DNA of 64,000 nucleotides from Barnesiella viscericola DSM 18177 (GTDB lineage: Bacteria; Bacteroidota; Bacteroidia; Bacteroidales; Barnesiellaceae): assembly GCF_000512915.1 (NCBI RefSeq), contig NZ_CP007034.1:1-64000 (forward strand). Reading direction: 5' to 3'. A program made the translations under genes and the position numbers. The first letter of the stretch is position 1; each line of letters starts with the position of its first letter. The notes beneath the pieces were generated by a model, which worked only from the letters and a program-made list of their open reading frames with translations, had not been told where the DNA came from and did no database searches. Positions 54,223-59,906 of this stretch are shown one piece after another.

Positions 54223-55461
54223 TTAGCGTTGCTTCTCGTTCTCGCGAATCCATCGCATCACGTTGGCAGGCGGTCGCTGGTTGTCGAGCTCGCGTTTCAT
54301 GAAATCCATGTAGGGAGCCACGTGTTTGAAAAACTGGTGGTATCCGGCACACAGGTAGTTTAGACCCGGTTCACCGGTAGCCGTCCGGGTAAAGCGGTTT
54401 TTGGGACACTCGCCGTGGCAGGCAAACAGGTAGTCACACTCTTTGCACTGTGTGGGCAGACTGTCGCGCTTGTTCTGCCCGAAGGCGACTTGTCGCGGAC
54501 TGTTCATCATCTCGATGAGCGAGTGGGTGTAGATGTTGCCCAGTTTGTATTCGGGGAAGACAAAGTGGTCGCAACTGTACACGTCGCCGTTAAATTCCAT
54601 CACGCCGGCATGGCCGCAGGTCTCGGCCATGGAGCAGACGCCCGGCATCACGCCCGCCCAGTTGGCGAGGGTGGCATCGAACAGCTGTATGAAGTATTCG
54701 CCCACGTCGTTTCGCACCCAGTCGTCGAAGAGGGTACAGAGAAAATTGCCCCACTGTTCGGGCGTGACCGAGAAGTCGGTTACCCCGTTGTGGGTCTCTT
54801 CGTCGGGAGCCGCCAAATGTCGGCCGTCGGCATGCGGGTTGATGCGCTCGACAATGGGGGTGAACTGGATATACTTGCAATGTATGTCTTTGAAAAAGTG
54901 ATAGAAATCGAGCGGATAGTCGGCATTGAAATCGTTGATGACCGCCAGGGCATTCCACTCGACTCCATGCTTGTTGAGCAGGTTGATGCCCTGCATCACC
55001 TTCACGAAGGTGGGACGACCCTGTTTCGTGAGGCGGTATTCGTCGTGGAACTCCTGGGGACCGTCGATACTCACCCCCACCAGCCAGTTGTTCTCCTTGA
55101 AGAAGCGGCACCAGCTGTCGGTGAGCAGCGTGCCGTTGGTCTGAATGCTGTTCTCGATGACGCGGCCGCGTCCGTATTGCGCCTGCAACTTCACCACCTT
55201 TTGGTAAAAGTCGAGCGGGCGCATCAGCGTTTCGCCGCCGTGCCAGGTGAAGAGAATATGGTCGCTGGCCTGGCTCTCGATATACTCTTTGATGAATTTC
55301 TCCAACAGGCTCTCGCTCATGATGTGGCGGGGCGTGTCGTGGTAGAGTTTTGCCTTCTCGGTATAGTAGCAGTAGGTGCAGGCCAGGTTGCAGATCGATC
55401 CCACCGGCTTGGTCATGATATACATGATTCGGTCGAAGGGTGTATAGAGTGTCTTTTCCAT
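54223..55461 (-). CDS. Anaerobic sulfatase-maturating enzyme (radical SAM)
   Basis: A 412-residue radical SAM SPASM enzyme that oxidises the active-site Ser (or Cys) of sulfatases to formylglycine under anaerobic conditions. I start it at the ATG at 55461 (MEKTLYTPFD); the longer frame to 55614 adds only an unlikely N-terminus. The radical cluster motif is CNLACTYC (Cys24, Cys28, Cys31). The HGGETLMR SAM-contact motif lies near residue 80, and the SPASM cysteines include CKECDYLFACHGECPKNR near residue 350. It is divergent from a Ser-type sulfatase (55799) and can also serve the sulfatase at 12952. Confidence 0.93.
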   Translation of the reverse strand: MEKTLYTPFDRIMYIMTKPVGSICNLACTYCYYTEKAKLYHDTPRHIMSESLLEKFIKEYIESQASDHILFTWHGGETLMRPLDFYQKVVKLQAQYGRGRVIENSIQTNGTLLTDSWCRFFKENNWLVGVSIDGPQEFHDEYRLTKQGRPTFVKVMQGINLLNKHGVEWNALAVINDFNADYPLDFYHFFKDIHCKYIQFTPIVERINPHADGRHLAAPDEETHNGVTDFSVTPEQWGNFLCTLFDDWVRNDVGEYFIQLFDATLANWAGVMPGVCSMAETCGHAGVMEFNGDVYSCDHFVFPEYKLGNIYTHSLIEMMNSPRQVAFGQNKRDSLPTQCKECDYLFACHGECPKNRFTRTATGEPGLNYLCAGYHQFFKHVAPYMDFMKRELDNQRPPANVMRWIRENEKQR

Positions 55462-55798
55462 AAAAGTCGTTTGTGTTGTGTGTTTATTTCGGTGGGTAAA
55501 GATAGTGAAAGGTGAGAGTAAAGTCAAATGGAAAACGAAGTTTTCGGTATTTGGCTTTGGTGTGTTGCTATCAGTTTTTGGTAAAGTGTGTAAAAAAAAG
55601 AGGGGGAGAGGCAAGAGGCAAGAGGAAATCAGGATATTTATTCTCTTCTTTCTCCTATCGGGGTATGAGGAGAAAGGGACGATAAATTTCTGTGTAGGCG
55701 TGTCGGATTTTTTTTGAGCCCGCTTTCTTGGGGGTACAGGATTTTAGTTCTATATTTGACGATTGTAGTTCTGGAAAATCAAAAAAAACAAGATACCG
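55462..55798. other. Divergent intergenic region between maturase and sulfatase 2
   Basis: About 340 bases hold the two divergent promoters. On the minus side a near -7 TATCTTTA (plus-strand 55497-55504) lies about 36 bases before the maturase ATG. On the plus side the promoter at 55727-55758 is better formed. No other gene is credible here. Confidence 0.5.
55727..55758 (+). promoter_or_regulatory. Promoter of sulfatase 2
   Basis: CTTG at 55727-55730 (near TTTG), a 20-base spacer, then TATATTTG at 55751-55758, an exact -7 match, about 40 bases ahead of the ATG. Confidence 0.6.
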
Positions 55799-57313
55799 AT
55801 GAAATACAGTCGATTTTTATGTGTGGGAGGCGGGCTGCTGGCTGCTGCCTTCCCGGTGTTGGCGCAGAAGAGCGACAAGCCTAACATTATTTTTATCCTG
55901 TGCGACGACATGGGCTATGGCGACCTGGGGTGTTACGGACAGCCATATATCGATACCCCCAATCTCGACCGCATGGCCTCGGAGGGCATGCGGTTTACCC
56001 AGGCCTATTCGGGCAGTCCCGTGAGTGCCCCTTCGCGGGCCAGTATCATGACGGGGCAGCACTCGGGGCACGGCGAGGTGCGCGGCAACAAGGAGTATTG
56101 GCCCGAGAGCGGCGAGGTGCGTTATGGCATCAATACCGACTATGCCGTGGTGGGGCAGCACCCCTACGACCCCAATCATGTGGTCTTAACCGAGGTGATG
56201 AAGGACAATGGCTACACGACCGGCATGTTCGGCAAGTGGGCCGGCGGTTATGAAGGTTCGGTCTCTACCCCCGACAAGCGTGGAGTCGACGAGTTTTTCG
56301 GCTACATCTGCCAGTTTCAGGCTCACCTCTACTATCCCAACTTCTTGAACCGCTACAACCCGGCTTTGGGCGACACAGCCACGGTACGGGTCACGCTCGA
56401 CGAGAATATCCGGTATCCCATGTGGGGGGCCGGTTATGAATTGCGCAAGCAGTACTCGGCCGACCTCATTCACCGGGCTGCGCTCGATTGGCTCGACCGA
56501 CAGTCGGCCGACCAACCCTTCTTCGGCTACTTTACCTACACCTTGCCTCACGCCGAACTGGTGCAACCCGAGGATTCCATCTTGAACAAATATCGAGAAC
56601 GGTTGGGCGACAAGGGTGTCTATACCGGCAGCTATTGGAGCCGCTACAACCCGGTGACCCACACTCATGCCCAGTTTGCCGCCATGATCGAGCGGCTCGA
56701 CAAGTATGTGGGCGAGGTGTTGGCCAAGCTCAAAGAGAAGGGGCTTGACGAGAATACGATTGTCATCTTTTCGTCGGATAACGGTCCTCACGAAGAGGGG
56801 GGGGCCGACCCCACATTCTTTGGTCGTGACGGTAAGTTGAAAGGGTTGAAACGTTCGTGCCACGAAGGGGGTATTCGCATTCCGTTCATCGTGCGCTGGC
56901 CGGGCCACGTGCCGGTATCGGTCAACGACCATCAATTGGCTTTCTACGATATTCTGCCCACCTTCTGCGACCTCACGGGTATGAAGAATTATGAGAAACG
57001 GTATGCGAAGGGGCAATCCAATTATTTCGACGGACTCTCCTTCGCACCTACCTTGCTGGGTAAGGACAAGAAACAGAAGCAGCACGATTTCCTCTACTGG
57101 GAGTTCTGCGAGACCGACCAGATAGCCGTGCGTCAAGGCGACTGGAAACTCTTCATTGAGAAGGGCGAGTGTCACCTATACAACCTGGCCGACGACATTC
57201 ACGAAGACCACGACCTGGCCGCACAATACCCCGAGCGGGTAGAGGCCATGAAACAGATTGTTTTTGAACAGCACGTCGATAATCCCTATTTCAAGGTGAC
57301 GCTGCCGCAATAG
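55799..57313 (+). CDS. Exported sulfatase, serine type (sulfatase 2)
   Basis: A 504-residue family S1 sulfatase with a signal peptide (residues about 1-22, after VLA). Metal-ligand start NIIFILCDDMGYGD, then the maturation signature S-A-P-S-R at residues 76-80. Ser76 would become formylglycine, made by the maturase encoded divergently upstream. The second metal-ligand motif SSDNGPH and the catalytic-lysine segment MFGKWAGG are present. It likely removes sulfate from glycans such as mucin or glycosaminoglycan; the exact position and sugar are not clear. A terminator at 57369-57395 follows. Confidence 0.93.
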   Translation: MKYSRFLCVGGGLLAAAFPVLAQKSDKPNIIFILCDDMGYGDLGCYGQPYIDTPNLDRMASEGMRFTQAYSGSPVSAPSRASIMTGQHSGHGEVRGNKEYWPESGEVRYGINTDYAVVGQHPYDPNHVVLTEVMKDNGYTTGMFGKWAGGYEGSVSTPDKRGVDEFFGYICQFQAHLYYPNFLNRYNPALGDTATVRVTLDENIRYPMWGAGYELRKQYSADLIHRAALDWLDRQSADQPFFGYFTYTLPHAELVQPEDSILNKYRERLGDKGVYTGSYWSRYNPVTHTHAQFAAMIERLDKYVGEVLAKLKEKGLDENTIVIFSSDNGPHEEGGADPTFFGRDGKLKGLKRSCHEGGIRIPFIVRWPGHVPVSVNDHQLAFYDILPTFCDLTGMKNYEKRYAKGQSNYFDGLSFAPTLLGKDKKQKQHDFLYWEFCETDQIAVRQGDWKLFIEKGECHLYNLADDIHEDHDLAAQYPERVEAMKQIVFEQHVDNPYFKVTLPQ

Positions 57314-57422: not shown

Positions 57423-59369
57423 TTATTTTTTCTTTTGGGTGGTGATGAGGAGGACTTTGTCATTGTCCTTGGCCCCATATCTCTTTTTGGCTTCTTTACT
57501 TTTCACCACCTTGATGCTGGCAATGTGATCCGGGGGTAGTTGGCTGAACTCTCTTTCCGAGCTTCTTTTGCCGTCGATGATGTAGATGATATGGGGTATC
57601 GGTTTGAAGTATTTTGATACCGAATCGGTATTTACGATTCGGGTCGAGAGGGCATTGATACCTTTTTCGTCGATGGCTCGGGTGATGGAGTCGGCATTGG
57701 CTCTTATCCGGGTCGAGAGGGAATCGATGCGAGCTATGGCTTCGGGCGAGAATTCTTTTCCCTCTTTGGTGATGGTCACCTTTGCACGAATGGAGTCGGA
57801 CAGGGCTCTTACCTGTTGCTGCCAATCCTGCAAGGAGGAATTTTGCGAATGGATAATGATTGTATTCTCTCCATTGTCGTTGCCGTTGAGTATCGAGATG
57901 TTTCCGACTTGTCCCGATAGGTTGAGCTTTTCCATATCCTCGGCCGAGATCTCCTTGCCGTTGATGATATAGGAGAACTTGCCTGTCGAGAGATTGTCTA
58001 TCACTTCGGCCGGGACTTTCTTCCCGTTGATGACGTAGTAGCTTGTTTGGGAGCCCTGTTTCCCGTCGTTCGAGAGGGTTATTTTCATCGGTTGGGTCTC
58101 GTCCTCCTCTTTCGTATTGATGAGCAGGACGCCCCCTTGGGCTTCGTCGCCATATTTCTCAACGGCCGCTTTCCCTTTGAGAACCGTGACACTCTTTATC
58201 TGGTCGGCTGAGAGTCGGTCGACCTCTTCGCGGGAGACTTTCTTGCCGTCAATGATGCAAAGTGCACTGTCCATCGATGCCGGTTTGCCGTTCTCGGTGA
58301 CTTGAATACGCAGATTGTTGCCGGTTGAGTCGTTCGACTCATCGAGGTTGACGTTCAGACCGTTTGTCTGGGTCGACTCATCGGCTGCGGTGATGGTGAT
58401 TGTCTGGAAGTTGGTGGTCGACTGTTCATCGGCCGGGTCGAGCAGGGCCAGCAGGTCGGTCGAGGCGATTTCGTCGAGACGGTCCGATACTTCGGGTCGG
58501 GCAAATACCGTAACGGTGCAGAGGGCGACGGGTATCACATAGAGATATTTCCAGATCGCTTTGTGGGGAGATTTCTTTTTAAGCATCATGGTAATACGTT
58601 TATTAAGTTTATTGTGATTGAAATGGTTGGTCACGCAGTAGAATTTCGAGCCTACCGACCGTTTGATGAGCAGCAGCTGGTATTGCTTGGCGTCGATCCC
58701 CTGAGCTAGTACATCGGCATCGGCTTCGTATTCGTGCACGGTTTGCAGTTCGCGTTTCAGCAGCCAGGCGGCGGGATTGAACCATTGCAACCCGGTACAG
58801 AGGTCGGCTGCCAGCAGGTCGAAGGAGTGGTGCTTGTGTATGTGTGCCGCCTCGTGTAGCAGAATCTCGCGGCTGTGGGTGGCATAGTCGGCCTCGGAGA
58901 GTACGATATAGCCGAACCAGCTGAACGGTGCGATGCGCTGGGGCAGGACGATGATAGGTCGGCCTTCGTCGTCGGTCACCCGGCGGCCGCCCCGCAGGAG
59001 TCGCCACAGGCGTACGATGGTCACCAGATAGCGGGCGACGAAGAACATCACTCCCGTCCAGTAGAGGATTACCGCAACCATAAGGGCTATGGGCATCGGG
59101 GTGGCTGTTGTTTCGACCACGTCGGTCATGTAGCTGAAAGCCGACAGATTGTCGAGCATCAAGACGGTAGCGGGGGCCACACTTTCGCTTGCGGGAGCCA
59201 ACAGCGACAGATGGCACAGCGGCAGCACAAACGAGAGGGGAATGAGGCCGAGCAGGGCTACCCGGTTGTAGCGGTAGAAGGTCTCCTTGCTCAGCAGAAT
59301 GCTGTAAAAGAGATAGAGCAGAGCCAGGCAAACGGCTGCTTGCAAGATGTAGACGAAAAATGCACTCAT
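57423..59369 (-). CDS. BlaR1-like M56 membrane metallopeptidase with TonB-plug-like repeats
   Basis: A 648-residue membrane sensor-protease. Membrane helices lie at about residues 5-25, 35-55, 92-115 and 270-290. The zinc protease motif HEAAH (His172, Glu173, His176) in LLHEAAHIHKHHS sits in the loop, as in BlaR1 and MecR1. In place of a penicillin-binding sensor, the extracytoplasmic part (about 290-648) has three or four repeats resembling TonB-plug segments: IDGKKVSREEVDRLSADQIK with SVTVLKGKAAVEKYG, then INGKKVPAEV, INGKEISAED, and IDGKRSSERE with YGAKDNDKVLL. It overlaps no gene and follows the BlaI-type repressor by 12 bases. Signal, ligand and target are unknown; the pair may respond to an envelope cue. 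Confidence 0.85.
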   Translation of the reverse strand: MSAFFVYILQAAVCLALLYLFYSILLSKETFYRYNRVALLGLIPLSFVLPLCHLSLLAPASESVAPATVLMLDNLSAFSYMTDVVETTATPMPIALMVAVILYWTGVMFFVARYLVTIVRLWRLLRGGRRVTDDEGRPIIVLPQRIAPFSWFGYIVLSEADYATHSREILLHEAAHIHKHHSFDLLAADLCTGLQWFNPAAWLLKRELQTVHEYEADADVLAQGIDAKQYQLLLIKRSVGSKFYCVTNHFNHNKLNKRITMMLKKKSPHKAIWKYLYVIPVALCTVTVFARPEVSDRLDEIASTDLLALLDPADEQSTTNFQTITITAADESTQTNGLNVNLDESNDSTGNNLRIQVTENGKPASMDSALCIIDGKKVSREEVDRLSADQIKSVTVLKGKAAVEKYGDEAQGGVLLINTKEEDETQPMKITLSNDGKQGSQTSYYVINGKKVPAEVIDNLSTGKFSYIINGKEISAEDMEKLNLSGQVGNISILNGNDNGENTIIIHSQNSSLQDWQQQVRALSDSIRAKVTITKEGKEFSPEAIARIDSLSTRIRANADSITRAIDEKGINALSTRIVNTDSVSKYFKPIPHIIYIIDGKRSSEREFSQLPPDHIASIKVVKSKEAKKRYGAKDNDKVLLITTQKKK

Positions 59370-59381
59370 GGTCTGACGGTT

Positions 59382-59747
59382 TTATGATTCATGACCCCGT
59401 TCTACTTTCTCGATGAGCTCTTTCAACTCGTTCAGTGAGATGTCTTCCTCTTCAATGAGCGACGAGACCACGCCCAGGTAGGAGTTGTTGAAATATTTTC
59501 GTACCACCTGTTTCAAGGTACTTTTCCTGAACTCCTCTTCGCTCACGGTGGCGTAGTACTGGTAGGTCTTGCCATAGGCTTTGTGCGACAGGTAGCCCTT
59601 CTCTTCGAGCCCCCGTACGATGGTCGACAGGGTGTTGAAGTGGGGTTTGGGTTCGTCGTAGAAATCGAGCAGTTCTTTCACGAACAGCGGCCCTTTGAGC
59701 CAAAAGTAGTTCATGATTTCTTCTTCTTTTGCAGTAAGTCCTTTCAT
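59382..59747 (-). CDS. BlaI/MecI/CopY-family transcriptional repressor
   Basis: A 121-residue winged-helix repressor of the penicillinase-repressor family. I start it at the ATG at 59747 (MKGLTAKEEEIMNYF), eight codons after an upstream ATG. The DNA-binding region (about 1-75) includes KPHFNTLSTIVRGLEEKGYLSHKAYGKTYQYYA, and the C-terminal half forms the dimer. The BlaR1-like gene follows 12 bases downstream, as in the classical pair, where the protease cleaves the repressor. Four AACTA-N7-TAGTT dyads at 59775-59855 stand directly upstream and are very likely its operator. Confidence 0.93.
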   Translation of the reverse strand: MKGLTAKEEEIMNYFWLKGPLFVKELLDFYDEPKPHFNTLSTIVRGLEEKGYLSHKAYGKTYQYYATVSEEEFRKSTLKQVVRKYFNNSYLGVVSSLIEEEDISLNELKELIEKVERGHES

Positions 59748-59768: not shown

Positions 59769-59797
59769 CAAATAAACTAAAAGTTTTAGTTGTTCAA
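59769..59797 (-). promoter_or_regulatory. Promoter of the blaI-like operon
   Basis: On the minus strand TTG (plus-strand CAA 59795-59797), an 18-base spacer, and TTTATTTG (plus-strand CAAATAAA 59769-59776), a one-mismatch -7 element. Operator dyads 1 and 2 overlap these elements, which fits repression by promoter occlusion. Confidence 0.55.
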
Positions 59798-59855
59798 CTA
59801 ATATTTATAGTTAATAAAACTAAACAATATAGTTTTATCACTATAATTCATAGTT
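59775..59855. promoter_or_regulatory. Four phased operator dyads of the BlaI-like repressor
   Basis: AACTA-N7-TAGTT is repeated: 59775-59791, 59796-59812, 59818-59834, and a one-base variant CACTA-N7-TAGTT at 59839-59855. Centres at 59783, 59804, 59826 and 59847 are 21, 22 and 21 bases apart, about two helical turns. All four should therefore face the same side of the DNA and allow cooperative binding of repressor dimers. Confidence 0.85.
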
Positions 59856-59876: not shown

Positions 59877-59906
59877 GCGGCAACCGGTTACCAAACCGGT
59901 TGCCGC
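59877..59906. terminator. Terminator after the MFS gene
   Basis: GCGGCAACCGGTT (59877-59889) pairs perfectly with AACCGGTTGCCGC (59894-59906) around ACCA. It lies 40 bases beyond the stop of the MFS transporter gene. A short A-rich flank is present on the minus-strand exit side. Confidence 0.75.

Follow-up and report, generated by a model that had tools for sequence, protein, structure and literature searches.

The locus examined here raises the question of what a cluster of inverted repeats ahead of a blaI-family gene in Barnesiella viscericola DSM 18177 controls, whether the operon that it precedes or a wider set of genes. The window, meaning the whole stretch of DNA analysed, comprised 64,000 nucleotides (positions 1 to 64,000 of contig NZ_CP007034.1, forward strand), and the features of the locus are collected in Table 1.

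Table 1. Features of the blaI-M56 locus, in window coordinates.
Feature	Position	Strand	Remarks
M56 (BlaR1-type) membrane protease gene	57423..59369	-	648 aa, HEAAH motif, TonB-receptor-plug-like tail
blaI-family repressor gene	59382..59747	-	121 aa from ATG at 59747
-7-like element	59769..59776	-	TTTATTTG; one mismatch to TAnnTTTG; unchanged in 9/9 Barnesiella genomes
Predicted operator O1	59775..59791	-	exact dyad, AACTAAAACTTTTAGTT on the minus strand; closest to blaI
-33-like TTG	59795..59797	-	18 bp before the -7-like element
Predicted operator O2	59796..59812	-	exact dyad
Predicted operator O3	59818..59834	-	exact dyad
Predicted operator O4	59839..59855	-	one mismatch, CACTA...TAGTT on the + strand
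Terminator-like hairpin	59877..59906	-	separates the array from the upstream MFS transporter gene

The predicted operator array and promoter

The array lies in an intergenic stretch of 130 bp, of which 103 positions (79%) are A or T. Scanning of the window sequence recovered three copies of AACTA-N7-TAGTT and a fourth with one mismatch, and their centres (59783, 59804, 59826, and 59847) are 21, 22, and 21 bp apart, exactly as the initial annotation had described. The span of 64 bp corresponds to about 6.1 turns at 10.5 bp per turn, and the earlier placing of all sites near one face of the helix was borne out. In 20,000 dinucleotide shuffles of the same stretch, one exact dyad arose in 45 and two in none; with up to one mismatch allowed, two dyads arose in 23 shuffles and three in none, against the four observed. 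When the half-site was left free, 8 of the 20,000 reached the observed count of three N7 dyads sharing a half-site. Across the window as a whole, 21 matches with zero to two mismatches were counted against an expected 15.7 (sd 4.2), which is no excess. The exceptional feature is clustering, rather than the number of motifs in the window.

The -7 consensus is TAnnTTTG. The earlier statement that sites 1 and 2 overlap the -7 and -33 elements was correct only at the edges, as O1 shares 2 bp with TTTATTTG and O2 shares 2 bp with the -33-like TTG, while O1 fills the spacer between these elements. The TTG was kept in seven of nine Barnesiella genomes, and was TTT in the other two. Among loci whose dyads have the seven-base spacer (N7 loci), TTTG or TTCG followed soon after the dyad in 65 of 82, compared with 21 of 82 in the stretch preceding it. 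The sequence supports a predicted Bacteroidota-type promoter at the array. The RNA start that the -7-like element predicts is downstream of all four sites, so the dyads should be absent from the RNA. The MFS transporter gene upstream runs in the same direction and stops ahead of the terminator-like hairpin, and there is no divergent gene.

An ortholog of the repressor was found in all nine Barnesiella genomes (81-97% identity in the eight besides that of the window), as were the four sites in 21/22/21 phase, each of them exact or with one mismatch. O1 was exact in all nine; O2 and O3 were each exact in eight, with one mismatch in the remaining genome, and O4 was exact in six, with one mismatch in three. 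In the genus alignment most half-site positions, the O3-O2 linker, and the -7-like element were kept, while the upstream stem, the leader, and the flanks drifted. Within the dyads, half-sites were constant and spacer letters varied.

The repressor and its partner protease

The start of the repressor gene was taken as the ATG given in Table 1; the ORF list instead starts at TTG 59771. The protein matched PF03965 with 99.7 bits (cut-off 22.6) over profile positions 1-114 of 115, covering the winged-helix and dimer region, and the family alignment matched solved MecI and BlaI structures (PDB MecI 1okr, BlaI 1sd4, and others). This match, together with the four sites kept in all nine Barnesiella genomes, supports the earlier reading of the repeats as a putative operator array of the BlaI family. 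Against the CopY/TcrY profile TIGR02698 the repressor scored 49.9 bits, under the cut-off of 121.95. Text excerpted from PMC3305447 places the BlaI cleavage bond at N101-F102. That position aligns to Ser-Leu in the window repressor, so cleavage at that bond is unsupported, and because the known bond is not conserved, release is the least secure step of the mechanism proposed below.

The gene directly behind specifies a protein matching PF05569 (37.3 bits, cut-off 31) and PF07715 (36.2 bits), and its tail also matched SusC/RagA profiles of NCBIfam. Residues H172, E173, and H176 were invariant in 12 of 12 aligned proteins, that of the window included, and the alignment showed a second invariant motif, HE/AD. 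The partner had been called BlaR1-like, which holds for the M56 protease half but not for the sensor: no penicillin-sensor domain was among the Pfam or NCBIfam matches at E 0.001, and the tail is TonB-plug-like. The NCBIfam profile blaR1_generic gave 17.9 bits against 400 (residues 166-279), and BlaR1 of the PDB (8exp) matched family profile positions 1-285 of 555, the protease part only. Among ten partner proteins of relatives, Pfam gave an M56 match in nine (that of L139 below cut-off), Plug in three (that of L074 below cut-off), and a TonB_C tail in four. The tails of the L086 and L087 partners were without a Pfam match, that of L087 being SusC/RagA-like by NCBIfam. TonB-type tails stand where the penicillin sensor would be. 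In the M56 partners of L094, L139, L036, and L133, one to three TonB C-terminal domains replaced the sensor domain, and such partners occurred in both of the spacer classes described below.

At a locus of a Bacteroides MAG (L070:3711-6224), source of the tenth partner protein, the gene behind a blaI of the N7 class specified redoxin/AhpC/thioredoxin-like domains, without an M56 match or HEXXH, possibly a change of partner judging by these domains.

No beta-lactamase or PBP gene adjoins the array among the window ORFs, and the genome shows no second operator pair at a linker of 4 with up to two mismatches. Within the window no same-strand gene follows the protease, the next gene being convergent and sulfatase-like. 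The latter (55799-57313, +) stands beside a radical-SAM enzyme gene (54223-55614, -), both named by eye, and the enzyme is probably the maturase of the adjoining sulfatase-like protein. A conserved third gene as hidden output of the operon was considered and rejected: in a crude scan covering 64 closed protease loci, 33 had a third ORF on the same strand, 28 had no candidate, and 3 ran into a contig end, the third-ORF proteins were diverse by eye, and several of the calls are probably spurious.

Dyads and blaI genes in other genomes

The exact N7-N4-N7 pair occurred in 18 of 247 Bacteroidales genomes, and its reversed control in none of the 247; the number is small because mismatches or other linkers occur in many arrays. 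A blaI gene was present at all 18 exact-pair loci examined (one per genome; G063 has two further places), and N7 dyads lay no more than 300 bp upstream of the gene. In a sample of the phylum the exact pair was found in 4 of 395 genomes, all among the six belonging to the order of the window, and in none of the 389 others. It was also seen outside Bacteroidales, at a Capnocytophaga locus (L131). A corresponding pair with six-base spacers (N6) was more widespread, occurring in 59 of the 247 Bacteroidales genomes and in no control, and at 26 of 30 N6 pair loci examined a blaI was detected with N6 dyads in the 300 bp ahead of it. At L173 the blaI start was cut by the contig end, and at L177 the pair stood behind a probable M56 frame. 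It is the phased pair, rather than the single motif, that is the signature.

The association was also seen from the side of the protein. A BlaI relative was detected in 43 of 60 relatives searched, and 110 blaI loci were picked by protein alone, one locus each from 30 of the 43 matching genomes together with 80 kept of 586. An exact N6 or N7 dyad lay within 300 bp upstream in 99 of these 110 loci, at least one of which (L024/L069) was counted twice, and 11 loci were without such a dyad. HEXXH was found in the next ORF at 93 of 98 N7 loci having one (spacer-picked loci included; two further N7 loci had no next ORF), and at 35 of 41 N6 loci having one. BlaI-M56 pairs were found in many Bacteroidales, and a usable predicted operator for them is now given.

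Two spacer classes

Spacers of 2 to 12 bases were scanned at the 110 protein-picked loci, and the exact dyads had spacers of 7 (164), 6 (32), 10 (3), 3 (1), and 8 (1), so that 196 of 201 were N6 or N7, with half-sites AACTA/TAGTT common to both. By locus, 82 had N7 dyads (L028 also N6), 17 had N6 without N7, and 11 had neither; as the 80 kept loci were those nearest to the protein of the window, the N7 share is no census. Successive exact N7 sites were 21 bp apart in 50 of 82 distances, the others being 23 bp (11), 22 bp (10), 19 bp (4), and further values (7), and successive N6 sites were 20 bp apart in 8 of 14. N6 loci also carried paired sites with a 4-bp linker.

In a tree of 143 distinct BlaI proteins, built from few columns, with many unresolved forks and with spacer-picked loci included, the N6 and N7 labels needed 3 changes over 131 labelled rows, suggesting that spacer class largely follows the BlaI tree. 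Four genomes (G031, G088, G132, and G230) carried both classes, with a separate spacer for each repressor; three had been picked since both exact pair patterns matched, and the fourth came from the BlaI-relative and N6-pair searches. Repressors of N6 loci shared 39-46% identity with that of the window in the relatives search, and L133 and L145 reached 54%, so identity alone does not separate the classes. Residue H36 of the recognition helix was rejected as sole cause of the N7 spacer, since His also occurs at the N6 loci L133 and L145 and Ala in 2 of 93 N7 rows.

No exact AACTA dyad was found at the other BlaI paralogs (in G033, G019, and the genome of the window). One G033 paralog (L201) had two N6-like dyads in which one arm is TCGTT, which indicates that further specificities exist. 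In G019 (contig 240, L203) two blaI genes stand in tandem, identical at 82 of 121 residues, and upstream of them stretches like ATACGACGTATTCGTAT take the place of an exact AACTA dyad. The genome of the window has a second BlaI-family gene (G000 contig 1, 1230388-1230781; L001, L198). A different dyad, CTACGAAATTTTCGTAG, stands immediately before it, so operators are not expected to be shared between this repressor and that of the array. The putative operator motif of the second gene, CTACG-N7-CGTAG, had 3 matches in that genome against 5 in the control, with no regulon seen; of the two further matches (L199 and L197), that of L199 falls in a long frame.

Spacer length may be a specificity code, by which two BlaI groups would read AACTA/TAGTT at N7 or at N6, keeping co-resident repressors apart with each controlling its own protease operon, and the N7 array would have grown to four phased sites in Barnesiella. 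We hold this tentatively, as a reading of the sequences that comes close to an even chance but falls short of it. The apparent new part is the bimodal spacer, with an N7 class one base longer than the known family sites. The matches listed from the open-access literature held nothing on operators, signals, or outputs of Bacteroidota BlaI-M56 pairs, which suggests that the N7 spacer class is undescribed. Genomes with both classes offer a clean test of whether one spacer base insulates paralogous repressors.

Self-control or a wider regulon

From its position, conservation, and company, the array is most probably an autoregulatory operator of a BlaI-family repressor that controls the blaI-M56 operon. 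In the mechanism that we infer, repressor dimers would line up on the four sites along one DNA face, covering the only promoter of the blaI-M56 operon and so keeping the levels of repressor and protease low. The phasing makes cooperative binding plausible. The M56 protease would receive an envelope signal, probably by way of the TonB-plug-like tail and not of a beta-lactam sensor, and would then inactivate the repressor, allowing the operon to switch itself on. The direct output at the motif is most likely the operon itself.

The array could alternatively be the hub of a wider regulon acting in trans, whose other targets have single or weaker dyads, and the initial annotation had in this sense proposed the motif as a searchable regulon signature, with a genome scan as one check and equal frequency at random as a refutation. 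At the stringency applied, the scan gave the proposal no support, the single AACTA-N7-TAGTT being no commoner than chance. The genome of the window (one contig, 3,076,856 bp) held 4 exact dyads, 3 of them in the array, and the reversed control 6; one-mismatch dyads numbered 63 against 198. Pairs in the same genome (linker 4 only) with up to two mismatches were limited to the two of the array itself, and six with three mismatches brought the total to 8 against 57 in the control. Over the nine Barnesiella genomes there were 36 exact dyads against 57, with 31 in the blaI array and 5 elsewhere, and the exact pair was found beside blaI at 18 of 18 loci.

The off-array dyads do give a wider regulon some footing, as five Barnesiella genomes have one each, but four of the five lie inside frames (G007, G003, and G005) or, in the genome of the window (757585), where two frames converge, between their 3' ends. 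By the exact motif no off-array place was common to more than one Barnesiella genome, positions being unaligned between genomes. The fifth, L048:688-704 of G008, falls right where an outer-membrane-protein-like frame begins, roughly twelve bases after TATATTTG, and judged by this placement may be a real site and the best candidate for a non-blaI target in the genus. Two N6 pair loci point the same way: at L174 a TPR-like gene stands between the pair and blaI, and at L170, one of the 30, another gene adjoins the pair (L170:525-560) with blaI undetected on the stretch. The L170 gene is a possible aspartyl-protease-like frame, named by eye, and a candidate trans target. On balance a wider regulon is unlikely, and the results suggest that BlaI-M56 pairs mainly control themselves.

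A different regulator that binds the sites and acts on blaI is a good deal less probable still, since the dyads accompany the gene at 99 of 110 loci picked by protein, and the tracking of the BlaI tree by spacer class, with its 3 changes over 131 rows, would be unexpected for a foreign regulator. Least credible is that the dyads matter through hairpin formation or through the A+T richness of the promoter rather than as protein sites: the 79% A+T content and the self-complementarity agree with this, but half-sites are kept while spacer letters vary, steps are regular (mostly 21-22 bp for N7 and 20 bp for N6), two spacers account for 196 of the 201 exact dyads, and sites upstream of the predicted start would be missing from any transcript.

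Comparison with known systems

The predicted autoregulatory array has its nearest counterparts in BlaI/BlaR1 and MecI/MecR1 of Staphylococcus and Bacillus licheniformis, which likewise have a BlaI-family repressor, an M56 gene directly behind it, several promoter operators, and self-control; three operators are given for B. licheniformis BlaI in an excerpt of PMC3305447. Unlike these, the window has a TonB-plug-like tail with no penicillin-sensor domain detected, and is without N101-F102; next to the array there is no beta-lactamase or PBP gene.

The CopY/TcrY copper repressors belong to the same family and often carry a pair of operators ahead of the cop operon (in 67 of 88 sequences), mostly 24-39 bases apart with a mode of 26 by the counting of that paper (PMC7253601, in part). 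The window differs in its centres at 21-22 bp, in a score far under the CopY cut-off, and in having a protease as partner. As stated in the same excerpted source, two sites gave CopY no significant gain in affinity (PMC7253601).

The CopY/BlaI core is given as TACANNTGTA, that is TA-N6-TA, in part of PMC7253601, and the OP1 oligo of B. licheniformis reads TTA-N6-TAA in the text excerpted from PMC3305447. This TA-N6-TA core is shared by characterised BlaI, MecI, and CopY members, although it does not define the Pfam family, and in the window it is TA-N7-TA. The N6-class BlaI-M56 pairs of Bacteroidales have the same half-sites as the window but differ in their N6 spacer and 20-bp period; they fit the published geometry, and the class of the window is one base longer.
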